Shown: positions 1-13,356 of the stretch, piece after piece
How the letters are laid out: each line of letters opens with the position of its first letter
Numbering within the stretch: position 1 is the first letter of the stretch
Assembly (NCBI GenBank): GCA_945882215.1
Contig: CAMCWM010000003.1
Coordinates: 1-64,000, forward strand
Direction: 5' to 3'
DNA: 64,000 nucleotides
Source: Akkermansia muciniphila
GTDB lineage: Bacteria > Verrucomicrobiota > Verrucomicrobiia > Verrucomicrobiales > Verrucomicrobiaceae
Translations under genes and position numbers: made by a program
The notes under the pieces: model-generated
Seen by the model: only the letters and a program-made list of their open reading frames with translations
Told to the model about the DNA's origin: nothing
Databases searched by the model: none

Positions 1-33
1 GGAGAGCAGGAGGGAGGCGCGAAAGGCATTCAT
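1..33 (-). CDS. Partial CDS, 5' end only (possible exported protein)
   Basis: Eleven codons run off the left edge of the window, reading MNAFRASLLLS, a charged-then-hydrophobic start that resembles a signal peptide. It begins 27 bp after the stop of the pentaheme cytochrome gene on the same strand, so it would be the next gene of the cytochrome operon. No Shine-Dalgarno site is visible. The call rests only on position and hydrophobic character; the function cannot be told. Confidence 0.4.
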   Translation of the reverse strand, partial: MNAFRASLLLS

Positions 34-60
34 GGGAGTGAAGGGCGTTGAGATCGCAGG

Positions 61-2601
61 CTAGTTTTTCTTGGGTGCGGATGCGGGGGCGTCTGGCGCA
101 GGCGGTGGTGACGGGGCAGACGGTGGTCCTTCAGGAACTGGAGGTACCAGCTGCAGCGGAGCCACTTTGGGCACTGCATGCATCGGCAGCGTAGGCTCTG
201 TGCCGGGCAGCGGGGCGATCATGATGGCACCGGCGCTGGAAAGCTGCTTTTCCTCAAATTTCGGGTCGTAGGGGAAGGGTGGCTCTGCTTTGGCGAGGAT
301 TTCTTTCTCTGTGGGCTTGAAGTTCCACTGCTTGCGAGTGCCGTCGATGACGAAATTTTTGTCCCAGATGGTCAGAGCGCCGCCGCGGCGGTCTTCATCC
401 CGGTTGGAGGTGGAGACCTTGTGGCCGAAGGCGACGCGCTTCGCCACCTCCATAGGGGAGAGGTCGTAGTCGAAACCGACAAAGGCGATTTCTTTGACCA
501 AGTTCACCGGGACCATCTGGCAGATGAACTTGAGGTTCACCTTGTAAGGCCGCTCGCCCGTAAGAGCGCTCGCGGGCACCTCATACTTGCCCCAGCGTTC
601 GCCGTTGGGGAGCAGGACTTCGGCCTGCTTGCGTGCACCGCCGGGGCGACCAAACAGAATGCCGGGGCGGGTGTCAGGTCGGATATAGGGCAGCGGGTCG
701 ATGACCTGGTTCACGGCCAGCACCTGCTCACGCTCACCGCCGCGCAGATTGCGGACGATGAATTTGGACTGGAGGTTGAGCAGGTCGTCGTCGAGCTTCC
801 AGTTGCGGTCCTCGGGCTGGATGGGGCGGCCAAGCTGACTTTTCCAGGAGGCCATGTTGAGCCAGTGGCTGGTTTTAGGGGCGTTGTGATGCACGAAGGT
901 GGAATGGATGTCGCGCATGTCGCCATTGGGGTCACGATCACCGGATTGGTAAAGGACGCGGCCTTTGGCGTCTTTGACGGTGACTTGCAGCGCCATCAAG
1001 CGTTCGGCATCGAAGCCCGTGGGGACGCCGTGGCCGTCGGTGCCATTTTTGACCTGCACCTGGAAGTTGAGCCCTTTGGCGTCATCACGGGTGATGACGA
1101 CATCGCCGAGCTGGATGCCGCGGCGGAGGATCTGCTGACGCTCGGTGTGGATGGTGTTGAGATTGCGGAACTGCTCGTTGAGCAGGATGCGGAAATCCAT
1201 GCGGTACTGGCGGTCACTCCACGGCCAGGGGAGCGATTCCTCGATTTTGGGGTTGTCGCGGACGCGTTTTTCAAAGGCGCTCTCGGCGTTGCCCCAGCCT
1301 TCCTCCCACTTGAAGGTGAGCGTGTGCTTGAGACCGGCACGTTCTTTGACCTCGATGGTGCCGTCTGGCTTGACCTCCTGTTTCTGCATGTCCCAGAGCA
1401 GGTCACGGATGCTTTTGGAATGCGGGAACATGCCGGTGTGGATGATGGAATAGTCCGGGCCGACGAACATGTGGTTGGTGCGTTTGCGCGGCTGCGTGGG
1501 TGCGCCGTAGTCGGGATCACCCTCTTTGGCCCAAGCGGCCCCACCGATGCGGGCGGCGGGGGCAACGGCGTAGTTGGCTGCACCTTCGGCGGTTTTGGCA
1601 CCCGGAACCTTGCCCATGTGGCAGTCCTGACAACTGGTGTTGTTCTTGGCGGCAGGGGAGTTTTTGAACTGAGTGAAAGCTTCCTCAAGGCGGAACCCGT
1701 TGAGCAGGTTCACGTCATGGCAGGAGCCGCAGAAGGCCGAGGTGGTGATGGGATCGAATTTGAGGGCGTCACTGTGAATCTTTTGCTGCCCCTGGGATTC
1801 CTCATTGGGTTTGAGGTTGGGGTTGGAAGCGATGGTCTTCTTGAGGATCTCGCCACCTTTAGGCCCGAAGACGGCATCATAGACATTGCCTTCGACGATG
1901 GCGGTGCGACCGCTGACCTTGCCGTAGTTGCGGTCCACACGATGGCAGACGATGCAGGTGATCCCCTCGGTGGAAGCTGGGTGGCGCTTGAGATTGCTGG
2001 TGAACAACGGTTCCTCACGTTGCATACCGATCTGGGTGTGGCAGCGGATGCAGAAGTCACCATTGGTGCCGGAGGTGCGGTGCAGGATAGCGGCCTGCAT
2101 GGAGTTGAACACGGGGCTGAGCTGGCCGTAGGCGTGGGCGGAGACGGACCATTCACGATAGTGGTCGGGATGACACTCGGCACAGGCAGACGCGGTAGGG
2201 AAGCGTTTCTCGCTCTCCAGCAGGTCGAGGAATCGAATGTGCGCTTCATTGGCGTTGGCATATTTAACGACGGGAGCGGCCGGGGCCGCTGGAGTTGGAA
2301 CCACGCTGGCCGGTCCGGTGCCGGTCAGGGGGCCGAAGGACTCACCGCCGAATGATTCGGCACCTGCGCCGGGTTTGGCGGGCATGGGAGCTCCAAAATT
2401 CTCCTGGGGTGCTGCGGCAGGCGCACCAGCAGGTGGAGCACTGAAGTTTTCCTGCGGCGCGGGCGCGGCAGCAGGGGGAGCGGCGGGTGCTTTGGCTTCC
2501 TGAGCTTCACCCGTCAAGGTGAGGGCCAGGACGAAGAACGCCAGACGCAGGAGGCGGCCCAGCGGCAGGCGGGATGTTTGGATGGCGCGTGTTGTTTTCA
2601 T
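61..2601 (-). CDS. Exported pentaheme cytochrome c
   Basis: An 846-residue exported c-type cytochrome, last complete gene of the minus-strand cytochrome operon. The start at 2601 gives a signal peptide (MKTTRAIQ, then a hydrophobic run ending near TGEAQEA). The longer open frame reaches back into the upstream cytochrome gene and was rejected. After the signal comes a Pro/Ala-rich stretch with repeated ENF and ESFG units. Five CXXCH heme sites follow (CAECH, CIRCH, CIVCH, CGSCH, CQDCH) in the first half. The roughly 450-residue C-terminal part has no heme site and looks beta-rich. The five closely spaced hemes recall cytochrome c554-like proteins. The protein probably passes electrons in the periplasm or at the cell surface together with the decaheme cytochrome upstream; the terminal partner is not evident. 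Confidence 0.9.
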   Translation of the reverse strand: MKTTRAIQTSRLPLGRLLRLAFFVLALTLTGEAQEAKAPAAPPAAAPAPQENFSAPPAGAPAAAPQENFGAPMPAKPGAGAESFGGESFGPLTGTGPASVVPTPAAPAAPVVKYANANEAHIRFLDLLESEKRFPTASACAECHPDHYREWSVSAHAYGQLSPVFNSMQAAILHRTSGTNGDFCIRCHTQIGMQREEPLFTSNLKRHPASTEGITCIVCHRVDRNYGKVSGRTAIVEGNVYDAVFGPKGGEILKKTIASNPNLKPNEESQGQQKIHSDALKFDPITTSAFCGSCHDVNLLNGFRLEEAFTQFKNSPAAKNNTSCQDCHMGKVPGAKTAEGAANYAVAPAARIGGAAWAKEGDPDYGAPTQPRKRTNHMFVGPDYSIIHTGMFPHSKSIRDLLWDMQKQEVKPDGTIEVKERAGLKHTLTFKWEEGWGNAESAFEKRVRDNPKIEESLPWPWSDRQYRMDFRILLNEQFRNLNTIHTERQQILRRGIQLGDVVITRDDAKGLNFQVQVKNGTDGHGVPTGFDAERLMALQVTVKDAKGRVLYQSGDRDPNGDMRDIHSTFVHHNAPKTSHWLNMASWKSQLGRPIQPEDRNWKLDDDLLNLQSKFIVRNLRGGEREQVLAVNQVIDPLPYIRPDTRPGILFGRPGGARKQAEVLLPNGERWGKYEVPASALTGERPYKVNLKFICQMVPVNLVKEIAFVGFDYDLSPMEVAKRVAFGHKVSTSNRDEDRRGGALTIWDKNFVIDGTRKQWNFKPTEKEILAKAEPPFPYDPKFEEKQLSSAGAIMIAPLPGTEPTLPMHAVPKVAPLQLVPPVPEGPPSAPSPPPAPDAPASAPKKN

Positions 2602-2644
2602 GATGATGCTGACTGAGTCGGTGTTGGCAGGGAAGAGAAAAGGA

Positions 2645-5377
2645 TCAGGGCACGGCGGCGGTCTTGATTTTGCCGGATGCGGGGGCGGCAGGGCGTTTGT
2701 CGGCACGTTGAGTGCCAGTTTTCGCAGGCTTGGCCTCATGCGAACGCAGCCATTCGAGCATGTCCGCAGGACCATCCGGGGCAGGATGGTGGTAGGCATG
2801 GCATTGGAGACAACTGTCCCCGCTTTTCGCCGGGGTGTGACACTCGGCGCAGGTGGTCTTGGAAATCTGCTCAAAGTTGCTGTGGAAGTGCGCGAGTCCG
2901 GCCTTCTCGAACCAGTTGGCGGCGGCGTTCCAGCTTCCCTCCCCTGGGAATGCGGCGGCGTACTCCTGACCAGCGGCGGGCTGGGTGAGGGTGACGTGGC
3001 ACTGGCGGCAGTCGGCGGCCAGCAGATGGGACATGTGGTTGTAACGCGTGAGCGGACGGTCGCTGCTCGCCGGAGAGGTGTGCTTGCCGTAGGCGAGCCA
3101 GTTGATGACTGCGCCCGTGAGCTGGCCCTGCTGATCCCGGCGTTCTTCAATGGTGTGGCACTTCAGGCAGTGGCCCGTGGCGGGGGAGAGCGCCCCTTTG
3201 TCAAAACCAAAGCCTTCGCGCAAGGTGGCTAGGCGCAGCGGATCACGAACATCCTCCAGGACGTGCTCCAACCATGCTTTCAGGAGCGGATCGGCATGGC
3301 CGGTGGACTTGTAATAAATGGTGCCATACTCCTGATGCCAGCCGCCGGAGGAAGTCCAGTTCATGCGGTCCAGGGGATCGATGCGCGGCGTTGCCACCGC
3401 AGCCGGAGCTGTAGCGGCCGCTGCAGGCGCGGCAAAGGATTCCCCGGCAGGTGGCGCTGCAGCAGGAGCCGGAGCACCGAATGATTCGCCTCCAGGTGGC
3501 GCTGCAGCAGGAGCCGGAGCACCGAACGATTCTCCTCCAGGTGGTGCGGGTGCGGGCGCAAAAGATTCAGACTTTACGGTCGGGGGTGCAAAAGATTCGC
3601 CTCCGCCCGTCGGCGGCATGGCAGCCGCAGCAGGAGCGCCGAAGGACTCGCTGGCATTGCCGGGGGCGGCTGGCGCGAAGTTTTCCCCACCTACGGCCGG
3701 GGCAGGCGCGGCGGCATTTTCCGGTTTGCGAACGCTTTCCTTGGGCGTGGCGGCGGGATAGACCTTGGTGCGGAAAGCATCGACTTCCTGCATGATCTTC
3801 ATGCAGGCATCCGCCCCCAGAAACTCGCGCATCTGGTCAAAGGCGTCCGGTGGCAGGCCGTTGATGAGCCCTTCCCGTTCGTTGCATCCGGCGGCGACGA
3901 GACGCCGGATGATTTCAGCGTGACCCACCTGCCCGGAGGGCGTGTCCGAGGGGGCGCTGGCGCACAAGTCGCGGAACAGCTCCTTGATGCCCCAAACCAC
4001 GCGTTCGGCGTCAGCGACGTGCTCTTGTTTGATCGAGGCAAGGTCATGCAGAAACACTTTTTGAGCGGCGAGCCGCTGCCAGGCCGCACGCGCATCCTCC
4101 GGCAGGAGGTAGAGGATGAGCCAGGGGAAATCATTGGGAGCATCTGCAGGCCAAGTGCCCAGCGAGCGCGGTTTCTGCTCCGCCTCGAGCTTGGAATTGA
4201 GAGCCGCCAAGTCCAACTGGGGATAGCCAATCACCGGCAGCTTGTTGCCGGAACGCGTGTCGTTTTCATGGCAGTCGGCGCAGGCCTTTTCATAGGAGAC
4301 CACGTTCATGGTGCCGCTGCTGCTGTTGGAGGCATGGCAGGCGGCGCAGGAGAGGCTTTCGCCATGCGGTGCATCGGCTTTGAAGCCGGCGGGCACTCCT
4401 TTGGCTGCGTCCTTGGTCTTTTCCGGGAAGTGCTTGGAGTAGTGGGTCAGATGATCGAAGAAAATGCGGGTGCGTCGGCTGGCAGGATAAGACACCGCCT
4501 CAAAATCAGGGTGGCCGTGGGAAAAGCTCTCGAACTGCTGCTGATGGCACACTTGGCACTGGCGGTTGGTGAACGATTTCAGGTCCGCCATGAGGCCGTG
4601 ATGCTCGTTGTGGCAGGTGCCGCAGGCGAGCTGCTCCCCGCTGCCGCTGGCCGCTCCCGGAGTCTTTTCTCCTGCCAGATAGGAAGCCAGGCGCAGTAGA
4701 GGGTCAGGCCGGGACTCCCCCTTGCTTTTGGCCTGGAGTTTTTTCGGGTCCATGGTGTGCGCGGTGAAGGCATACCGCCCGCCATTGCCACCGATCTCCT
4801 GATGACACCCAAGACAGAGCTGGCTGTCGGCGATGGCACGGTGGTCGAAGTTCGCGGAATGCATCGCCAGCAGCTTTTCCGGCCCCAGTTGCATGTCACT
4901 GTGGCACTGCTGGCAGTTGGATTTGAGCGTGGAGTGCGCCGCCGTGAGCGGCCCGGGATTGATGGCAGCCGTGCCAAGTCCGCCTTCTTGCGGTTGATGG
5001 GCGAGCAGCGCGACCAGCAACGCCACGGTCATGACCGCCGCGACCTTCGACAGAATGCCCCGCACCCGGCGCAGAGTAGGCGTGGGCTGGCAGGGGGCGA
5101 TGGCGCGGCAGCAGGAGCCGTCCGGCAGAGGCCCTTCTTTGCATGGTTCTCCTCCGTGGGTTTCCACCCGGGCACATTGCCACTGGTCACCGCTGCGGCG
5201 GGGCAGGCACTCACCGGACTTGCGCCCGTCGAACTTCATCCCCGCCCGGCACTTGCCTTTGGCGTCGGGCCCGAGGTAGCACGACTTCCCCTGACACTCC
5301 GCCCCACAGACCCATCCCTCGTTGGGGCGGTCATAGGTGGTGTGGCGGTGCCGGATGTCCTGGAATTTGTCTGCCAT
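2645..5377 (-). CDS. Membrane-anchored decaheme cytochrome c with Cys-rich N-terminal head
   Basis: A 910-residue protein. Residues 1-107 hold ten cysteines (24, 28, 33, 43, 57, 68, 79, 89, 90, 96), none in a heme motif. A single membrane segment follows at about 108-126. The exported part carries ten CXXCH sites (CQQCH, CLGCH, CGTCH, CQVCH, CAACH, CADCH, CLKCH, CRQCH, CAECH, CLQCH), six before and four after a Pro/Ala linker at about 560-668. That linker is made of repeated GGESFGAP units. With an N-in topology the Cys-rich head faces the cytoplasm and could hold a metal centre (inference). The gene begins 12 bp after the stop of the cytochrome b-like gene. The architecture suits electron transfer across the membrane into the periplasm. 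Confidence 0.9.
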   Translation of the reverse strand: MADKFQDIRHRHTTYDRPNEGWVCGAECQGKSCYLGPDAKGKCRAGMKFDGRKSGECLPRRSGDQWQCARVETHGGEPCKEGPLPDGSCCRAIAPCQPTPTLRRVRGILSKVAAVMTVALLVALLAHQPQEGGLGTAAINPGPLTAAHSTLKSNCQQCHSDMQLGPEKLLAMHSANFDHRAIADSQLCLGCHQEIGGNGGRYAFTAHTMDPKKLQAKSKGESRPDPLLRLASYLAGEKTPGAASGSGEQLACGTCHNEHHGLMADLKSFTNRQCQVCHQQQFESFSHGHPDFEAVSYPASRRTRIFFDHLTHYSKHFPEKTKDAAKGVPAGFKADAPHGESLSCAACHASNSSSGTMNVVSYEKACADCHENDTRSGNKLPVIGYPQLDLAALNSKLEAEQKPRSLGTWPADAPNDFPWLILYLLPEDARAAWQRLAAQKVFLHDLASIKQEHVADAERVVWGIKELFRDLCASAPSDTPSGQVGHAEIIRRLVAAGCNEREGLINGLPPDAFDQMREFLGADACMKIMQEVDAFRTKVYPAATPKESVRKPENAAAPAPAVGGENFAPAAPGNASESFGAPAAAAMPPTGGGESFAPPTVKSESFAPAPAPPGGESFGAPAPAAAPPGGESFGAPAPAAAPPAGESFAAPAAAATAPAAVATPRIDPLDRMNWTSSGGWHQEYGTIYYKSTGHADPLLKAWLEHVLEDVRDPLRLATLREGFGFDKGALSPATGHCLKCHTIEERRDQQGQLTGAVINWLAYGKHTSPASSDRPLTRYNHMSHLLAADCRQCHVTLTQPAAGQEYAAAFPGEGSWNAAANWFEKAGLAHFHSNFEQISKTTCAECHTPAKSGDSCLQCHAYHHPAPDGPADMLEWLRSHEAKPAKTGTQRADKRPAAPASGKIKTAAVP
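3450..3539 (-). repeat. Two exact-period 45-bp tandem repeats encoding a 15-residue linker unit
   Basis: Units 3450-3494 and 3495-3539 are nearly identical and encode PPGGESFGAPAPAAA on the minus strand. Degenerate versions continue on both sides to roughly 3370-3690. The period is a multiple of three, so copy-number change would keep the reading frame. The same ESFG/ENF motif occurs in the pentaheme cytochrome next door (about 2310-2500). Confidence 0.9.
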
Positions 5378-5389
5378 GCGGGGTGAGGA

Positions 5390-6211
5390 TCAAAGTCTGC
5401 CGCCATACACCAGCGCCACCCAGGCATGTACCAGGGCGACGATGATCAGGCTGTAGGTGAAGGGAATGTGAACAAACAGCCACAGCTTCAGCAGGCGTTG
5501 CGCGGCGTTTTGAAAGTCCAGGTTGCGTTTGCGCTCCACGCAATCGCGCAGTTGCTCCATGCTGCCGACGAGTTCCTCGTCCAGGTAGCGGCAGTACTCG
5601 TCCATCTGCCCGAGGATGCGCTGGGCATGGCGCGAGGGATTGCCCGCCAGGAGAAAGACACTGCTGCGGCCCTGAAAATAAGGCGCCAGCGTGCTCATGT
5701 AGAAATTGCCCATAGCCGTGGACCCGGATTGGCGTTCCGCGTCCTCCACGATGTCCTCCACCTCCGTGCGCAACGCATGCTGGTAGCGGGGAATGCGCTC
5801 ATAGACCAGCGGCTCGCCTGAGCGCGTGATGGCGGGTGGCAGCAGGCGCGTGATGAAAAGTCCCGCCACCCCGCTGAGCGCCACGATGACAAACAACACC
5901 GCCAGGATCGTCTCCAGCGTCCCCGTGGGCAGGCGGAAGCCCGAATGCAGCAGGAACATGAACACCGAGAGCCAGCCGGCGTAGATGTGGAACTGCAGCC
6001 AGGATGAGGCTTTCAGCAGCGGAAGGAATGGCAGCTTTTTGCGGCCGTTGAACAAGGCCAGGGCCAGCACCAGCGCCAGCAGCGCGAATCCGGTGTAGAT
6101 CGCCGCCGGCCGCAGCGCGACTTTCAGCATGCGCCACAGCCCGTAGGCAAGCACCATGCCCACGAGGCAGAGCAGCGTGTTGCGGAGGCGTCTGCGGGCG
6201 AAAAAATTCAT
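5390..6211 (-). CDS. Cytochrome b-like integral membrane protein
   Basis: A 273-residue membrane protein with about five hydrophobic segments: two at the N-terminus, two around residues 75-130, and one at the C-terminus. Four histidines lie in or beside membrane segments, in the contexts QFHIYAGW, LLHSGFR, FVHIPFTY and ALVHAWV. This pattern is what a two-heme b-type or ferric-reductase-like quinone-interacting subunit would show. A soluble stretch of about 110 residues separates the last helices. The start overlaps the stop of the upstream CNB-ferredoxin gene by four bases (ATGA), so translation is probably coupled. It would link a quinone pool or the FeS protein to the multiheme cytochromes. 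The role is inferred from histidine placement and gene order. Confidence 0.8.
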   Translation of the reverse strand: MNFFARRRLRNTLLCLVGMVLAYGLWRMLKVALRPAAIYTGFALLALVLALALFNGRKKLPFLPLLKASSWLQFHIYAGWLSVFMFLLHSGFRLPTGTLETILAVLFVIVALSGVAGLFITRLLPPAITRSGEPLVYERIPRYQHALRTEVEDIVEDAERQSGSTAMGNFYMSTLAPYFQGRSSVFLLAGNPSRHAQRILGQMDEYCRYLDEELVGSMEQLRDCVERKRNLDFQNAAQRLLKLWLFVHIPFTYSLIIVALVHAWVALVYGGRL

Positions 6212-7977
6212 CGGTTCAGCCAGGCGGCCAGTTTGTCGGTTTCCTGCATGTCCAGGCGGATGAGCGCATCATGCGGGCAGGCACGCACACAGGCCGGACC
6301 TCCCAGCAAGTCATGGCACAGGTCGCATTTCGTCGCCCGCTGCACCGCGCCATCAGCGCTCAGGCTGGTCATGGCACCCCGGCTGTCGAGGACGATGCGC
6401 TGCTTCTCGTCCAGCTTCACCGGAAACTGCGGCATCCCCCGCTCATCGCGGATTTCCACCATCTGGATGTTGTTGTAGGGGCAGTTGTTCGCGCAACTGG
6501 AGCAGCCGATGCAGGTGCGGTCATTGATCACCACCTCGCCGCTTTCTTCTCGGTGAATCGCCCCGGTCGGACAGGGGATCATGCAGATCGGGTCATGACA
6601 GTGCATGCATGCCTGCGTGATCTGGATGCCTTCGAGCTGGTCCCCTTGGCGGATGAAACGCGGATTGCCATCATGCGCGGAGGCGCAGCCGCGCACGCAG
6701 TCATCACAGCGCGTGCAGCGGTCCAGGTCGATGAGCATGGTGGCACCACCGTTGATCGTGCGCTTGTCCATGAAGAACTCCACGATGCCTGGCCCCAATT
6801 TTTCCCGCGCATCCTCACCAAGCTTCGCTGGACGCGCCGTTTTCGGTTTCGCACCTTGAGGTTCCAGTTTGCGCACCTCCGCCGCAGTGAGCCGCGGCAG
6901 GATCAGCCGCTCCACCAGCACAGTGGGGATGACCAGCACGTCCACATAACCCACGGCGCGCAACGAGTGCTCGGAGGTCATCAATTCGCCGGGTTTCTGT
7001 GCGTTTTGATAGATCTCCTTCAAGCCGTAACACTGCCCCTTCCCCAAATAAGCGGTCGTCTGCTCACCCAGGTGGTATTTGCGGCTCACACGCACAAAAC
7101 CGCCGCGCACGATGACGAGGCCATTCAAATAGTCGCCTTGCTGGAGAATCATCGGCTCGGTGCGCAGGCGCTCCGCAGGTGTCGTTGAGTCCAGCAGCTG
7201 CTGGTAGCTGCCATACCAGTCCATCCGGCCATACCGCTCGAACTCCGTCGCCGCCACGATCTCATCCACCGCCGACTGCGGCAGGCGGCGGATGATGTCC
7301 AGAGTCCGGAGGAGCGAGCGCAGTCCAAACTCACGAAAGCGCTGCTCAATGTAGGCCTTCAACTCAGGCGCGTAGTTCATCATGTCCCGCAGCCCCTGCC
7401 AGCGGATCTCCAGCATCTGCGTGCCGCTTTGCGCGGCGATGACGGTGGCGGTGCGCGGACTGCGCCCTAACGCGGCGATCTCGCCAAACAACTCGCCAGG
7501 CTGGAGGTCTTCCGTGCGCTTTCCCGCCAGCACGCGCGGCACATCGTGCAGGAGGATGAGATCATCTTCGTCTGCCTCACGTTGCCGGATGGAGTGGTGG
7601 GGCCGGTGCTCGCGCACACGCTTGGTGCCCAGCGCTCGTGCGATGCTCTGAAACCAGCCCTTCTTGGCACCTTCACTGCGGCCCAAGACCTCACGCGGCA
7701 GGCTCTCTAGCACCACGCGCGCCGTCCCCTCCAGCACCAGGAAGGCGGAGTTGCCGTAATCTCCCTCACGCACGACGATCTGGTCCTGTTTCAACGTCAG
7801 CAGGCGCGTGTCATTACGCAGAATGCCTGCCAGCGGCAGATGGCGCGGAAACCGCTGCGGGTCCAGCCGGTCAAATGGCGGCAGTGTCAGAATACGCTCC
7901 ACCTTCTCCGGCGTCACATCCGCGTCGAAGGGCTCGTCCCAGCGTGCTGGTCGGATGGTCTGTCCGCTGGCATCCAT
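6208..7977 (-). CDS. Ferredoxin with two cyclic-nucleotide-binding domains and four FeS cluster sites
   Basis: A 589-residue soluble protein. A first cyclic-nucleotide-binding domain spans about 46-200, with the phosphate-binding cassette GELFGEIAAL at 161-170 and the RTA triad at 175-177. It contains a long insert at about 92-158. A second, degenerate domain spans about 225-360 (LGKGQCYG at 311-318). The C-terminal part is a HybA/DmsB-like electron carrier with 16 cysteines in four groups: 421/424/427/431, 457/460/465/469, 489/492/495/499 and 551/554/563/567. The start at 7977 was chosen because the longer frame runs into the upstream cytochrome gene. Being encoded between cytochrome genes, it probably carries electrons under allosteric control by a cyclic nucleotide. 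The control is inference; the domains are visible. Confidence 0.9.
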   Translation of the reverse strand: MDASGQTIRPARWDEPFDADVTPEKVERILTLPPFDRLDPQRFPRHLPLAGILRNDTRLLTLKQDQIVVREGDYGNSAFLVLEGTARVVLESLPREVLGRSEGAKKGWFQSIARALGTKRVREHRPHHSIRQREADEDDLILLHDVPRVLAGKRTEDLQPGELFGEIAALGRSPRTATVIAAQSGTQMLEIRWQGLRDMMNYAPELKAYIEQRFREFGLRSLLRTLDIIRRLPQSAVDEIVAATEFERYGRMDWYGSYQQLLDSTTPAERLRTEPMILQQGDYLNGLVIVRGGFVRVSRKYHLGEQTTAYLGKGQCYGLKEIYQNAQKPGELMTSEHSLRAVGYVDVLVIPTVLVERLILPRLTAAEVRKLEPQGAKPKTARPAKLGEDAREKLGPGIVEFFMDKRTINGGATMLIDLDRCTRCDDCVRGCASAHDGNPRFIRQGDQLEGIQITQACMHCHDPICMIPCPTGAIHREESGEVVINDRTCIGCSSCANNCPYNNIQMVEIRDERGMPQFPVKLDEKQRIVLDSRGAMTSLSADGAVQRATKCDLCHDLLGGPACVRACPHDALIRLDMQETDKLAAWLNR

Positions 7978-8014
7978 CGTGTTTAGTGGGGGGGATTTGA
8001 GGGTGATCCACTCT

Positions 8015-9052
8015 TCACTTCGGCTGGAACGGCGTGCCGCGCTGCTTGGTGGGAATGAGACTATCCACCCCGGCAAGGCCCGAACCGTCGTGCTTCTGAC
8101 CAAACATCTCGATCTGCGCCTTGATGTCGTCTGCGCCTTTGATCACGGTGGCGGCATCGCCGCCGAGATTGGTGGCCTTGGCGATGGCGAGGATCTGCTT
8201 CAACTCCTCTGGCGCAGCGTCACCGCCCAGCTTCTCAATGACGGCTGGCAGCTCGGCGCTGATGATGGTGAAGGCTCGGCGTCCCATCGCCTGGCGGAAC
8301 GGAAACTGGTTGCCCTTCTGCACCCCGGCGGCCAAGCCGCGCAGGCTGTGTTCCAGGTCCAGCAGCAGTCCGGTGGTAAACAGCACGCGCTTGAAGGCCT
8401 GCGGCACCTCCTTGTTCTCCTTCTCATGCCGCACCGAGTTCGTGTAGAAATGATGCCGCACCTCGCCCTGGCTCCAGCTTGCCAGCTCGAAGCCCTCGCT
8501 GCGCGGCGGGTGGCCGCCGACGTTGATCAGCTTCTCGTCCCGCGCTACATGGCAACTGAAGCAGTTTTCCGCCACTTGATAAGTGTTGCGCGGGTTCAAC
8601 ATCCCGCCGGCGATCGCTTTCAGGATGCGGTCTTCATGGCTAGCGATCTTTTCCTTGTCCCCATGCACATCCACCCAGTCCTTCGCCCCACCGTGGCAGG
8701 ATTCGCAGCTCACCCCGCCGATCACCTTCAGCACATTCCCCGTCTGCTGACGCGTAAAATGGCACTCCGTGCAAAGCTGGTTCGTCGCGATCTCGTTCAC
8801 GCTCCGCAAGCCCATCTTCGTGGCGATCTCCTTGGCTTTTTGCGAGGTTTTCGGATCGCGGTGGATGCTGTCGCTGCGCGCATGCTGGGAGACGCGCCAG
8901 GACTGCAGCTCCTGCGTGTGGCACTTCTCACAGCGCTCCGCACCGATCACCCGCTCCGGATGCAGCGTGGAAATGGCCTGACCGCTGGCACTCGTGGCAA
9001 TGGCAAGCCCAAGGATGGCAATGGCAGGACTTAGCAGGGAGAAGGTGTTCAT
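8015..9052 (-). CDS. Exported tetraheme cytochrome c (cytochrome c554-like)
   Basis: A 345-residue protein and the first gene of the cytochrome operon. An N-terminal signal peptide (hydrophobic run ending ATSASGQA) is followed by four CXXCH sites (CEKCH, CTECH, CESCH, CFSCH) in the first half. Isolated histidines (QHARSDS, GHPPRSEG, VRHHFYT) could serve as distal ligands. The C-terminal third is helical with no heme site. The spacing of the hemes and the motif CHGGAKDWVDVH resemble cytochrome c554-family proteins. The gene ends 37 bp before the CNB-ferredoxin gene. It probably acts as the soluble periplasmic donor or acceptor of the system; its redox partner outside the operon is unknown. Confidence 0.88.
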   Translation of the reverse strand: MNTFSLLSPAIAILGLAIATSASGQAISTLHPERVIGAERCEKCHTQELQSWRVSQHARSDSIHRDPKTSQKAKEIATKMGLRSVNEIATNQLCTECHFTRQQTGNVLKVIGGVSCESCHGGAKDWVDVHGDKEKIASHEDRILKAIAGGMLNPRNTYQVAENCFSCHVARDEKLINVGGHPPRSEGFELASWSQGEVRHHFYTNSVRHEKENKEVPQAFKRVLFTTGLLLDLEHSLRGLAAGVQKGNQFPFRQAMGRRAFTIISAELPAVIEKLGGDAAPEELKQILAIAKATNLGGDAATVIKGADDIKAQIEMFGQKHDGSGLAGVDSLIPTKQRGTPFQPK

Positions 9053-9403
9053 GGTGAATGAAAGGTGTAATCTAATAATAATGGCAGCATTCTTCTAACT
9101 CCCGATGAGAAAGATGAGAAGCAAAAAAGTGGCTTTTTTCAGGCATCATTTTTCGTGCCGAAATTGTCGCTCAATTCTCCGAACGATTAAGCTGCCCGGC
9201 AGGGCTGCTGCGTGGGATGCTGCTTGACTTGCAGTTAAATGCGAGCTGTGAGCTACCAAGTCACGGTGCGCCTTGGGTAAGTATCTCATATACAGATGTC
9301 GTGCGATTCACCACAACACCGCTGCGGTGCCCTCCGCCAAGACGGCTTGCTGGCCTCCAATGGTTTGAGCCCAAAAACCAGGTCGCCCGCGCTGGCGCAT
9401 GCT
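9053..9403. other. Intergenic region upstream of the cytochrome operon
   Basis: This 351-bp stretch separates the cytochrome operon from the cyclase gene, both on the minus strand, so it should hold the operon promoter and any terminator of the cyclase gene. The half next to 9052 is clearly more AT-rich than its surroundings. The only structure I see is the A/T stem-loop at 9123-9139. No ORF in it looks like a real gene and no -35/-10 pair stands out. Confidence 0.5.
9123..9139 (-). terminator. Weak A/T stem-loop
   Basis: AAAAAAG and CTTTTTT form a 7-bp stem around a TGG loop. It lies downstream of the cyclase gene and upstream of the cytochrome operon. It could be a weak terminator or a promoter-proximal structure. 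The stem is nearly all A-T, so the evidence is thin. Confidence 0.25.
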
Positions 9404-10492
9404 TCAGGATGCCTGAATATCGCCCCTGGCCTCCTCCGCCCCCAGCCACAAAGCACGGCGCAAGACATCGCTGGCTTTGCCGCATTGATCCATCTGGCGC
9501 AATAGGCGGCCAAACTCCAGATGACCGTCGGCAAAATGCGGCCAGTAACGCGTGAGTTCGCTCAGCAGCAGTTCCGCCATTTGGAGATCATTCCGTTCTT
9601 GGTAGGCATGGGCCAGATGATACAGCGCGCTGGGATTGTCGGGCGAGTGCCGTAGCACCCTGCGGCACAGCTCCATGGCCTCATCCGTCACCTGGCCATG
9701 CTGCCGCTTGCTCCACACCTGGAACAGGTCATTCATCCAGAGATCCTGTGTCGCCAGAGTGATCGCATCCACCAGCATGGACTGGAGTTTCTCCACAAAA
9801 TATGGGTCGATCCGGCGGTGCGTGTCCTGAAAGCTGTGTGTCACCTCATACATGCCCACATCGCCCAAAATCCCCTTCACCTCGTAGCGCAGCCTTGCGC
9901 CAAAGATCAGGTTGCGCAGCAAATGGTGGATTTGCTTGAAGGCCTGATCAGACAAGAAAATTCGATAGTGCTGGCCATTGCGTGAGAGGCTTTCGACCCG
10001 CTTCGCCACATTGATGCCATAGCCGCTCAAACGCCAGCCCTCCCCCTGCATCACCGCCCACAGTGGCCCGTGGTGGATGCCGGCAGAGATTTCCGCCACC
10101 GGCGCACGCCGCTGGATGCGGCCGCGGTTTTGCTCTGAGGTCAGCCAGGCTGCCTTCAGTGTGATGGCCAGGCAAGCCAGTTGATACACATCATTCTGCG
10201 GCCTGCCGCTGTGGGCGAACACCAGCAGCTCATCCCCGGCGATCTGGTAAGTGTAGTCCCGGCCCGGCCGGTATGCCCCCTTGAGGAAGGTGTTGAAATA
10301 AAACTCGCACTGCCTGCCGCAGGTCGTGTGAAAATCATCCAGATAGGCCGCATACTCCGCCAGGCTCATCACGCTGGCGAAGACGCTGGAATTGACCAAG
10401 TCCACAAACAGCACGGCCGCCTCCAACGGCCGCCCCTGCCGGCTGTCAGCCGTCCCGTCCTCGCCGTGAGTGGTCTCTGCTGGGGCGCTCAT
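9404..10492 (-). CDS. Class III nucleotide cyclase-like protein with C-terminal TPR repeats
   Basis: A 362-residue soluble protein. Residues 22-215 match a class III adenylate/guanylate cyclase domain: metal-binding Asp31 in LFVDLVNSS, second Asp87 in YQIAGDELL, and the transition-state pair Asn161/Arg165 in GINVAKRVES. The base-selecting lysine usually found before the GD motif is Gln83, so ATP versus GTP preference cannot be read. The C-terminal part (about 270-350) has two to three TPR-like helical pairs (SALYHLAHAYQERND, ADGHLEFGRLLRQMD). It is encoded just upstream of an operon with a cyclic-nucleotide-binding ferredoxin, which suggests it makes the ligand for that protein (inference). 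It lies 15 bp after a lipoprotein gene in the same direction. Confidence 0.82.
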   Translation of the reverse strand: MSAPAETTHGEDGTADSRQGRPLEAAVLFVDLVNSSVFASVMSLAEYAAYLDDFHTTCGRQCEFYFNTFLKGAYRPGRDYTYQIAGDELLVFAHSGRPQNDVYQLACLAITLKAAWLTSEQNRGRIQRRAPVAEISAGIHHGPLWAVMQGEGWRLSGYGINVAKRVESLSRNGQHYRIFLSDQAFKQIHHLLRNLIFGARLRYEVKGILGDVGMYEVTHSFQDTHRRIDPYFVEKLQSMLVDAITLATQDLWMNDLFQVWSKRQHGQVTDEAMELCRRVLRHSPDNPSALYHLAHAYQERNDLQMAELLLSELTRYWPHFADGHLEFGRLLRQMDQCGKASDVLRRALWLGAEEARGDIQAS

Positions 10493-10507
10493 AAATCTGT
10501 TGGTTTC

Positions 10508-11191
10508 TCACAATTGGCGTCCGCGCTTCAGCGCATCGGGATCCGGCACTTCCTGCAATTTGTTCAGGCCGCCTTTTTTCAAGGCATCTGGGTCCGGCAC
10601 ATCCTGACGGTCGGCGGCCTGGGGTGGGGGTTGGTCTGACGGCATGCTACGGCTAGCACCCAGGATGTCGGCGGCAGCCAGCAAATCGTGGCATTCGACG
10701 CTTTGATTGAGCGTGCGGTTAACCCGCGCAAACATGTTATGGGAAGTGGGCAACTTGGCGATGAGTTGCCGCTGCAGCGCCACATTTTCCTTATAGTCTT
10801 TGACCTCGCCAGCCACTTGTTTGTCCAGTGCCTTGAGTTCGCGGTCGATCTTTGCCAGTTCCTTGCGGTCATTCAAGGCTCGGGCAGTGGCAACCCGCTT
10901 CTTATAATCAGCGAGTTTGTGGTTCAATGTCTCGATCCATCGCCTGGTGGCGGCATTTTCGCTGGCCGCTTCCCTGATGCATGCTTCCAATTCCCTCTCG
11001 AGTTCGGTGGTCTGACTCTTCATCAGCACCTGCTTTTGTTCCAAGGCAAAGAGCTCACAGCTTCTTGACTCTATCCGGACATCAGCTTTGGACTGGCTCC
11101 AGCCAAACAACCCACCCTGGCTCGGATCGCCAGTGGTGGCACAGGAACAGAGGCTGAATACCAGCAAGGCATTTAAGAGGGGGCGCAGCAT
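10508..11191 (-). CDS. Coiled-coil lipoprotein with duplicated C-terminal motif
   Basis: A 227-residue lipoprotein. The start at 11191 places MLRPLLNALLVFSLCSC at the N-terminus; the Cys after LCS is the likely lipidated residue, although Cys at the -2 position is unusual. The upstream extension is out of character and was rejected. Residues about 40-150 are strongly charged and helical, predicting a coiled coil. The C-terminus contains two copies of VPDPDALK followed by a basic residue and Gly. The gene ends 15 bp before the cyclase/TPR gene, so the two are probably co-transcribed. I do not recognise the family. It may be an envelope sensor or scaffold linked to the cyclase, but nothing in the sequence proves it. 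Confidence 0.75.
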   Translation of the reverse strand: MLRPLLNALLVFSLCSCATTGDPSQGGLFGWSQSKADVRIESRSCELFALEQKQVLMKSQTTELERELEACIREAASENAATRRWIETLNHKLADYKKRVATARALNDRKELAKIDRELKALDKQVAGEVKDYKENVALQRQLIAKLPTSHNMFARVNRTLNQSVECHDLLAAADILGASRSMPSDQPPPQAADRQDVPDPDALKKGGLNKLQEVPDPDALKRGRQL

Positions 11192-11350: not shown

Positions 11351-12163
11351 ATGAGCACTTCCCCCACCGCCGCCAGCCCTTTGGGCGTCTTTGACTCCGG
11401 CGTCGGCGGATTGACGGTCGTGCGAGCTTTGCGGGATCTGCTGCCGAATGAATCCATCGTCTATCTCGGCGACACAGCCCGCGTGCCCTATGGTTCCAAG
11501 TCACCGGACACGATCCGGCGCTTCTCGATGGAGGACACGCAGTTCCTCGTCTCGCACGGGGTGAAGGCGGTGGTGGTGGCGTGTAACACGGCCACGGCGC
11601 ATGCACTGCCGGTTTTGCAGGCCACTTTTCGCGTTCCTGTGATCGGTGTGCTCGGTCCTGGAGTCGAGGCCACGCTGGCGGATGCCCATTGCGAACGCGT
11701 GGGCATCATCGGCACGGCGGGAACGATCCGCAGCCATGCCTACCAGCATGAGATCGCGATGCGACGGCCGGATATCATGATTGAGGCCAAGGCGACGCCG
11801 CTGCTGGTGCCATTTGTCGAGGAAGGCTGGATCGACCATCCCGCGCTAAAGTCAGTGCTGCGCGAGTATTTAAAACCACTGCTCGACAAGGGCATCGACA
11901 CACTGGTGCTGGCCTGCACGCACTACCCGCTGCTGATTCCCGTGCTGAAACGCATGCTGGGCCAGAAAGTACGGCTGGTGGACTCCGCCAGCACCTGCGC
12001 GGCCCATGTGAAGGCACGGCTGGAGCAAGACGGGCTGCTGCGGACGGTGAAATCGAAACCCACGCTGGAGATTTACCTCACCGACCACTCCGAGCAGGCG
12101 GAGAATCTGGCCAAGCGCTTCCTGGGCACGGATTTCGGCAAGGTGAAGAAGGCGGTTGTTTGA
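11351..12163 (+). CDS. murI: Glutamate racemase
   Basis: A 270-residue enzyme that converts L-glutamate to D-glutamate for peptidoglycan synthesis in the cytoplasm. Family features are the N-terminal GVFDSGVGGLTVVRAL, YLGDTARVPYGSKS, the first catalytic Cys in VVACNTATA and the second in LACTHYPLL. The start at 11351 was preferred over the ORF start at 11312 because the protein then begins shortly before the conserved GVFDSG motif and leaves room for a promoter. The length is normal for MurI. It is divergently transcribed from the coiled-coil lipoprotein gene and followed by an LptF/LptG-type permease gene. Confidence 0.96.
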   Translation: MSTSPTAASPLGVFDSGVGGLTVVRALRDLLPNESIVYLGDTARVPYGSKSPDTIRRFSMEDTQFLVSHGVKAVVVACNTATAHALPVLQATFRVPVIGVLGPGVEATLADAHCERVGIIGTAGTIRSHAYQHEIAMRRPDIMIEAKATPLLVPFVEEGWIDHPALKSVLREYLKPLLDKGIDTLVLACTHYPLLIPVLKRMLGQKVRLVDSASTCAAHVKARLEQDGLLRTVKSKPTLEIYLTDHSEQAENLAKRFLGTDFGKVKKAVV

Positions 12164-12222
12164 AGCGGACTATGGCAATCTCAAATTGCCCGACGGAGAC
12201 ATCTCGCTAGCCTCGCGGCCAC

Positions 12223-13356
12223 ATGTTTCCGCGCATCTTTGACCGCTACCTGGGCCGCCAAGTTGGATCAGCCACGCTGATCGGCGTCGCCCTGCTCAGC
12301 GGCGTGATGGTTCTGGGGAATGTGTACAAGAAGCTCGACGAGCTGTTGGGCAACACCGAGCTGCCGCTCTCGGTGATCGCGGAGTTCGTGACGCTGGTCA
12401 TCCCCTTCTCGCTGATCTTTACCATCCCCTGGGCCTTTCTGACCGGCATCCTGCTGGTGTTTGGCCGTCTCTCCGCCGACAACGAGCTGGTGTCTCTGCG
12501 CATGACCGGCATGTCCATGCAGCGCATTTGCGCGCCGGTGTTTGTGCTGGCAGTGCTGCTCAGCGGCCTGTGCCTGTGGGTGAATGTCAGCCTAGCCCCG
12601 GCGGCGAAGGACCGCATGAAGCGCCTGTTTTACGAGGTGGCCGTGAAGCAGCCGGAGACACTGTTCCAGGAGGGCCAGGTGCTGGAGCGCGTACCTGGCT
12701 ACCGCATCTACACTGGCAAACGCGACGACAAGACCCTGACCGACCTGCACATCGTCAAGCTCAACAGCGCCGAGGTCGGCAGTTACATCCGTGCCAAAAG
12801 CGGCCTGATCCAGACGGTGCCGGGCAAGCTGGACTTCACCATGCTGCTCAAGGAGGTGAGCATCGAGCATTTTCAGGCGCAGACCGCAGCGGGACCACCT
12901 GCCGCGCCCAAACCACTGACCCTGGCCGAGTTTCCGCTCGAGTTCCCGCTCTCCGACATGCAAAAGGACGCGGTGCGGGTGAATGCCAGCATGAAAACGA
13001 CCAGCGCCCTCGCCGAGGAGGTCCGCACCTGGAAAGACACCTTCACCGGCGAAAAGCTCGATGCAGTGACACGGTCGCTGTCACTCACGGAACTCAGCAA
13101 GCGCTACAGCTTCTCGATGGCCTGCTTCACCTTCGCGCTGGTGGGCATTCCGCTGGGCGTCACGGCCCAACGCCGCGAAACCTCCAGCGGCTTCGCGCTG
13201 AGCCTCATCACCGCCACGGTGTACATCGTGTTCATCATTCTGGCGGACACGCTGAACGACAAACCAGCGGCCATGCCCCACCTCATCATGTGGCTGCCCA
13301 ATGTGATCTTCCTCGGCATCGGGGGCTGGCTGTTTTACAAGCTGAGCCGGAAGTGA
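12223..13356 (+). CDS. LptF/LptG (YjgP/YjgQ) family permease
   Basis: A 377-residue membrane protein of the lipopolysaccharide-export permease family. Three membrane segments lie in the first 125 residues, including the characteristic FGRLSADNELVSLRMTGMS stretch. A periplasmic beta-jellyroll-like domain (about 130-285) follows, then three C-terminal membrane segments (FTFALVGIPLGV, the LITATVYIVFIILAD region, IMWLPNVIFLGIGGWLFY). In LptB2FG these subunits extract lipopolysaccharide from the inner membrane. The partner permease is not in this window, so LptF cannot be told from LptG with certainty. It lies 59 bp after murI. Confidence 0.9.
   Translation: MFPRIFDRYLGRQVGSATLIGVALLSGVMVLGNVYKKLDELLGNTELPLSVIAEFVTLVIPFSLIFTIPWAFLTGILLVFGRLSADNELVSLRMTGMSMQRICAPVFVLAVLLSGLCLWVNVSLAPAAKDRMKRLFYEVAVKQPETLFQEGQVLERVPGYRIYTGKRDDKTLTDLHIVKLNSAEVGSYIRAKSGLIQTVPGKLDFTMLLKEVSIEHFQAQTAAGPPAAPKPLTLAEFPLEFPLSDMQKDAVRVNASMKTTSALAEEVRTWKDTFTGEKLDAVTRSLSLTELSKRYSFSMACFTFALVGIPLGVTAQRRETSSGFALSLITATVYIVFIILADTLNDKPAAMPHLIMWLPNVIFLGIGGWLFYKLSRK

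Follow-up and report, generated by a model that had tools for sequence, protein, structure and literature searches.

The present analysis concerns a stretch of 64,000 nucleotides (hereafter the window) from contig CAMCWM010000003.1 of an Akkermansia muciniphila assembly (GCA_945882215.1), and within it a redox operon which encodes, among multiheme cytochromes, a fusion of cyclic nucleotide-binding (CNB) domains with an iron-sulphur (Fe-S) polyferredoxin, here called CNB-ferredoxin. An earlier note made from the sequence had described a CNB cassette joined to four Fe-S clusters inside a multiheme cytochrome operon, and this observation was confirmed by Pfam, by the sixteen cysteines of the Fe-S region and by CXXCH counts, with the qualification that the cassette is present only in the first of two CNB domains (Table 1). 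The open reading frames (ORFs) of CNB-ferredoxin and of the inner-membrane protein (IMP) overlap at 6208–6211. A close relative (record L040) has the same gene order, followed by a 494-aa ORF and then by a FAD/NAD/2Fe-2S reductase; the 494-aa ORF, standing beside the pentaheme gene, gave no Pfam match and is likely the porin.

Table 1. Features of the redox operon and its upstream neighbours in the window.
Feature	Position	Strand	Remarks
Gene run (operon)	61–9052	−	5 genes, from tetraheme cytochrome (first) to pentaheme cytochrome at contig end
Tetraheme c554-type cytochrome	8015–9052	−	First operon gene; 4 CXXCH
CNB-polyferredoxin	6208–7977	−	589 aa; CNB1 and a degenerate CNB2; four [4Fe-4S] clusters predicted from 16 Cys
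CNB1 phosphate-binding cassette GELFGEIAALGRSPRTATV	7441–7497	−	Residues 161–179
CNB2	6925–7245	−	CNB fold without cassette Glu and Arg
Four-cluster Fe-S region	6277–6717	−	Residues 421–567
Inner-membrane protein (PCC4 IMP)	5390–6211	−	Two WX3HX13H and SGXXG; two predicted b-type hemes
Decaheme c-type cytochrome	2645–5377	−	10 CXXCH; one transmembrane helix; N-terminal Cys-rich domain
Pentaheme c-type cytochrome	61–2601	−	846 aa from ATG 2601; 5 CXXCH; contig ends here
Region upstream of operon	9053–9164	−	Conserved in L040 too; probable promoter region of the operon
Class III cyclase-like/TPR protein	9404–10492	−	Gln/Arg substrate residues; without counterpart in relatives; judged outside the conserved system
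Small coiled-coil, lipoprotein-like ORF	10508–11191	−	Upstream of window cyclase; absent from L040 along with it

The redox operon is best classed as a porin-cytochrome cluster of PCC4 subgroup II, a type already described (He et al., 2017, PMC5566968), and it probably connects the inside of the cell with electron donors or acceptors beyond it. According to the relevant passages of that paper, the subgroup combines cytochromes of 4, 5 and 10 hemes with an IMP in which WX3HX13H occurs twice beside SGXXG, the IMP gene being directly preceded by a PF13247 Fe-S gene. Heme counts in the window match (4, 5 and 10 CXXCH sites), the IMP has WX3HX13H at residues 71–89 and 244–262 and SGXXG at 113–117, and the PF13247 gene (37.7 bits, cut-off 26.2) stands directly upstream of the IMP gene. 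Against the five transmembrane helices given for the PCC4 IMP, hydropathy scanning of the window protein returned four merged segments, and a candidate for the PCC4 porin gene is seen in L040 as the 494-aa ORF, the window contig ending after the pentaheme gene. Planctomycetes are among the subgroup members named there, as they are among the loci collected here, while CNB domains, a linked cyclase clade and Verrucomicrobiota members are added by the present analysis; the main text of PMC5566968 contains no match for "cyclic", "cNMP", "cyclase" or "regulat". Porin-multiheme cytochrome clusters were also reported in freshwater Verrucomicrobia (He et al., 2017, PMC5615132), and the records bearing two names given in the corresponding passages, Verrucomicrobia bacterium IMCC26134 (L056) and Opitutus sp. 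GAS368 (L048), both turned out to encode CNB-ferredoxin. Neither "ferredoxin" nor "cyclic nucleotide" occurs in the main text of that study, whose account of the cluster leaves inner-membrane electron transfer open.

The CNB-ferredoxin ORF extends over 6208–8103 of the minus strand, the likely start being the ATG at 7977, which gives a protein of the same length as its L040 homologue. Pfam assigned cNMP_binding (PF00027, E 5e-22) and several Fer4 dicluster families including Fer4_11 (PF13247); no signal peptide was seen in the translation, and a search for viral relatives of the protein found none. Conservation was estimated over 116 homologue rows, which include three duplicate genomes (113 rows without them) and from which fragments shorter than 480 aa (L144 and two of L036) were left out. 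The Gly, Glu and Arg of the CNB1 cassette are kept in all 116 rows and the sixteen Fe-S cysteines, accounting for four predicted [4Fe-4S] clusters, in 114–116 of them. The residue following the cassette Arg is Thr in 86 rows, Ser in 18, Val in 8 and another one in 4; Thr at this place favours cGMP in PKG, a weak argument here. In CNB2 the cassette is lost in the window protein and in 13 of the 15 homologue rows printed, and retained in L037 and L038, distant CNB-ferredoxins (~31% identical) with a canonical cassette in the second CNB domain too.

In the AlphaFold model (mean pLDDT 75.9) the best Foldseek matches are the regulatory CNB domains of PKG and PKA. The CNB2 half aligns with PKG II CNB-B (VIA-align Z 17.0, root-mean-square deviation (rmsd) 2.3, 135 aligned), and CNB1 with the CNB domain of the M. 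loti channel (3cl1; Z 15.4, rmsd 2.6, 130 aligned). In PKG and PKA such domains also stand in tandem; here the pair is fused to Fe-S clusters and the second CNB domain has lost its cassette.

Fourteen of 288 Verrucomicrobiota genomes (draw of whole genomes, E≤1e-20), 26 of 294 Planctomycetota genomes (draw, E≤1e-100) and 26 of 116 genomes from the order of record L068 (Limisphaerales draw, E≤1e-100) encode CNB-ferredoxin, and related loci were collected from Verrucomicrobiota, Planctomycetota, SAR324, Poribacteria, Alphaproteobacteria and Mariprofundus. Lake contigs of metagenome-assembled genomes (MAGs) labelled Akkermansia muciniphila (L040, L057, L058 and L079) carry the conduit operon, and this organism label looks doubtful.

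A dedicated cyclase clade, different from the cyclase of the window, is conserved beside the operon in two lineages, Planctomycetota and Limisphaerales. When 1002 called ORFs were clustered, 21 of the 80 related loci proved to have a member of a class III cyclase family in their flanks, and among the 50 loci at least 16.3 kb long 15 have a cyclase against 0.93 expected from 244 PF00211 cyclases in 238.5 Mb, phylogeny being ignored; weak matches at the edges of L072 and L078 were not counted as near. The Planctomycetota draw gave a cyclase at 7 of 23 further loci and, with the three loci already in the set, in 8 of 26 genomes. Nine Planctomycetota loci have the cyclase gene arranged head-to-head with that of the reductase, the first of the operon, at gaps from −14 to 327 bp, and an FHA-cyclase occupies the matching place in L138, L139, L140 and L142 (Pfam was run on two of the four). 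Linked cyclases are GAF- or FHA-type in Planctomycetota (of the four of its group that were scanned, L076 alone gave a GAF match) and CHASE2-type in Limisphaerales, where the gene lies downstream, beyond the operon.

At the positions where adenylyl cyclases have Lys/Asp, the 24 linked cyclases have Asp/Gly (14) or His/Gly (10), while 18 unlinked controls comprise 14 with Lys/Thr, 2 with Lys/Ser, 1 with Asp/Ala and 1 with Asp/Gly, the site of the latter being otherwise altered (L168, which is the L053 cyclase gene, and L159, on the contig of L072, were left out of the control set). The guanylyl cyclase Cya2, as described in the passage of PMC4215837 devoted to it, has a Glu/Gly pair; the Asp/Gly linked cyclases likewise replace Lys by an acidic residue and Asp by Gly, but the linked enzymes have Asp or His instead of Glu. 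In the cyclase tree, from which L067 was left out for lack of a full catalytic domain, the 24 linked cyclases and one control make up one side of a branch with support 86/87, and each sub-group is strongly supported. On the CNB-ferredoxin tree (FastTree, 113 rows, duplicate genomes L026, L027 and L029 left out) the label "cyclase near" (29 rows) requires 13 changes against a shuffled mean of 25.9; blocks of Planctomycetota and Limisphaerales hold most of the labelled rows, and the window, L046, L153 and L154 are scattered. L046 belongs to SAR324 and has 53 cyclases in its genome, and by our estimate the scattered neighbours about match chance at ~1 cyclase per Mb (~2 expected).

Co-occurrence was followed in the 116 genomes of L068's order. 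A listing of CHASE2-cyclases matching that of L068 had 21 entries, and 19 of them were read, without the query itself and without the second of the matches from genome G713. Among these non-query matches all six His/Gly cyclases come from genomes with CNB-ferredoxin, compared with 4 of 13 having Lys/Thr or Lys/Ser; six out of six has an exact probability of 0.008 when compared with those 13 and of 6e-5 given the base rate of 25/115 (phylogeny ignored). In all six genomes the His/Gly cyclase and CNB-ferredoxin lie on different contigs, and their co-occurrence is therefore independent of adjacency.

Several observations weigh against the reading proposed below, in which this clade would supply a nucleotide to CNB-ferredoxin. 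The Poisson figure for 15 loci against 0.93 takes no account of phylogeny; 84 of the 113 CNB-ferredoxin loci in the tree have no cyclase in the flank, and neither has any of the 14 loci of the Verrucomicrobiota draw, because of which the linkage should be regarded as clade-bound. Two of the 14 Asp/Gly linked cyclases have Val for the catalytic Asn. Out of ten Planctomycetota genomes with an Asp/Gly-type cyclase (E≤1e-60) three have CNB-ferredoxin (E≤1e-100) and seven do not, on which ground Asp/Gly cyclases were rejected as a strict marker of CNB-ferredoxin. Finally, among the loci checked, Asp/Gly-type cyclases of L188, L189 and L192 lie within ~8 kb of genes for CNB-Ser/Thr kinases, an apparent bacterial cyclase/CNB-kinase pair, which points to a clade working with CNB effectors of various kinds; one of these three loci belongs to genome G472, which has CNB-ferredoxin elsewhere. 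Many of the genomes are MAGs with short contigs, so that linkage is undercounted and absence is weak evidence.

As a separate observation, at positions 8833–16312 of L186 a cyclase of the same type stands beside multiheme cytochromes, a porin-like ORF and a protein homologous to the PCC4 IMP, and no CNB-ferredoxin was found within 19.5 kb.

The cyclase of the window itself is of another kind. It matches class III weakly (PF00211, 22.5 bits at a cut-off of 21.9), carries tetratricopeptide repeats (TPR; TPR_19, E 2.3e-8), and keeps the two metal-binding Asp residues and the transition-state Asn and Arg. Its substrate pair is Gln/Arg, not the Lys/Asp or Lys/Thr of adenylyl cyclases, the Arg having been placed by eye because automatic alignments gap there. 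Against solved structures phmmer returned matches in the TPR part only, with no useful relative. The highest identity to linked cyclases is 22%; in the tree the protein falls outside the linked clade, at a weakly supported place (24/31) on a very long branch (end branch 5.63). Its own genome has ten PF00211 matches, of which it is the weakest, and none of those read is Asp/Gly or His/Gly.

The earlier note had placed this gene immediately upstream on the same strand. The strand is right, but the gene ends 351 bp before the tetraheme gene, which starts the operon, and is not beside CNB-ferredoxin itself. Nor is it conserved beside the operon in the relatives searched. L040, whose CNB-ferredoxin is 94% identical to that of the window and which keeps murI and the operon, aligns with positions 1–9164 and 11374–13354, the cyclase and coiled-coil genes falling in the gap. 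The segment 9165–11373, part of which has lower G+C (0.54–0.58) than the flanks, would seem to be either an insertion specific to this lineage or a segment that L040 has lost. No counterpart of the cyclase was detected by tblastn at any of the 80 related loci (several with short flanks), or by genome searches in the other 67 genomes of the family (1/68 being its own genome) or in the genomes of eight named relatives, the last search having been run without a positive control; in the Verrucomicrobiota draw 3 of 287 other genomes match it weakly, two of them in the TPR part only. Lack of conservation in relatives, which the earlier note had named as speaking against its proposal, is thus what was found for the window cyclase. 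Between 9053 and 9403 neither a consensus promoter nor a terminator was found; the conserved region of 112 bp preceding the operon suggests that the latter has its own promoter. Cotranscription of cyclase and operon as one unit was rejected on this conserved region and the L040 junction, and Pycsar-like defence was rejected as well, with no PADLOC Pycsar model (PycC or effector) at E≤1.

The window cyclase is not a conserved partner of the CNB-ferredoxin operon and is most likely its incidental neighbour. One could still suppose that this TPR cyclase is a dedicated partner newly recruited here in place of the clade used elsewhere, given that it adjoins the operon on the same strand, retains the metal Asp pair and catalytic Asn and Arg, has, like the conserved partners, no adenylate-specifying Lys, and shares its genome with no Asp/Gly or His/Gly enzyme among the matches read. 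We consider this improbable: L040 lacks the gene despite keeping the operon and murI, the family holds no homologue, the protein stands outside the linked clade with different substrate residues, a 351-bp gap and the conserved upstream region separate it from the operon, and at ~1 cyclase per Mb chance alone would place a cyclase near a few of 113 loci.

In our opinion there is an even chance, judging from sequence, that the operon encodes a PCC4-type conduit whose cytoplasmic Fe-S subunit doubles as a cyclic-nucleotide receptor. Ligand binding and ligand identity, gating and the direction of electron flow are what we infer, whereas operon membership, the conserved cassette, the cyclase linkage in other lineages and the lack of the window cyclase in relatives are observed. 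The proposed route has NAD(P)H or a soluble pool at one end, connected by the FAD/2Fe-2S reductase seen in L040 with the four-cluster CNB-ferredoxin, which most likely hands electrons between the reductase and the di-heme-b IMP; beyond the IMP it would lead through the decaheme and tetraheme cytochromes to a pentaheme-porin unit of the outer membrane. Occupation of CNB1 by a cyclic nucleotide would act as a switch on docking or on electron flow at the cytoplasmic end, transcription playing no part, and in two lineages the ligand would be made by the dedicated cyclase clade, whose Asp/Gly or His/Gly residues suggest that it is perhaps not cAMP. The more specific proposition, that cyclases with altered substrate residues make a non-cAMP nucleotide (cGMP being the nearest guess) which binds CNB-ferredoxin and gates the cytoplasmic end of the conduit in Planctomycetota and Verrucomicrobiota, is offered tentatively, as the less probable one. 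The idea of the earlier note that a second messenger acts directly on an electron carrier survives in part: the invariant CNB1 cassette and the cyclase clade linked in two lineages speak for it, but the cyclase of the window is not the partner. A comparable logic is described for XC_0250/XC_0249 of Xanthomonas campestris, where, according to the pertinent passages of PMC3770947, a class III cyclase is linked to a CNB effector and cGMP acts directly on an enzyme without transcription; there, however, a GGDEF diguanylate cyclase takes the place of the electron carrier. No paper describing such second-messenger control of a conduit was found in the one open-access library searched.

The same proteins admit other interpretations. 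CNB1 might be a structural or dimerisation module whose cassette is kept for folding, with no nucleotide control, as the persistence of the CNB2 fold without a cassette in the same protein and the missing cyclase at most loci would allow. Yet precisely the Gly, Glu and Arg that contact ribose and phosphate (roles as described in the relevant part of PMC11224242) are invariant in CNB1 while drifting in CNB2, and a cyclase is linked in two lineages, which leaves this explanation unlikely. Still less credit is due to the Fe-S region being a redox sensor rather than a carrier, so that CNB-ferredoxin would report on the conduit or set its state, with the nucleotide tuning the sensor: CNB domains are usually regulatory and the protein appears cytoplasmic, but its four-cluster fold is of the electron-transfer type known from DmsB, HydN and HycB, and its gene has a fixed place immediately before that of the di-heme membrane protein, which is also the arrangement in PCC4 subgroup II. 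Equally doubtful is the view that the cyclase linkage in Planctomycetota and Limisphaerales was simply inherited with the gene order and has no functional meaning. The clustering of linkage on the tree (13 changes against 25.9) and the position of the Limisphaerales cyclase beyond the operon could be taken for it, but it agrees poorly with two separate lineages, different sensor domains on one cyclase clade whose members share unusual substrate residues, and His/Gly cyclases that accompany CNB-ferredoxin even on different contigs.

A further feature of the operon deserves mention. The N-terminus of the decaheme cytochrome (5090–5308, minus strand) is a Cys-rich domain with a duplicated C-x8-C-x2-GP-x3-G-x-C pattern, matched by no Pfam family, in which seven Cys are kept in 87–90 of 90 homologues; the single transmembrane helix lies between this domain and most of the heme-bearing part, and the domain possibly provides a metal or Fe-S site on the cytoplasmic side, in electrical contact with the decaheme.

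If the CNB domain does gate the conduit, electron exchange with minerals or humics would be switchable within seconds and not by way of transcription, with the cyclase sensing the trigger for switching. This would amount to post-translational second-messenger control of extracellular electron transfer, and the linked cyclase and CNB-ferredoxin constitute a defined genetic pair with which the question may be tested.

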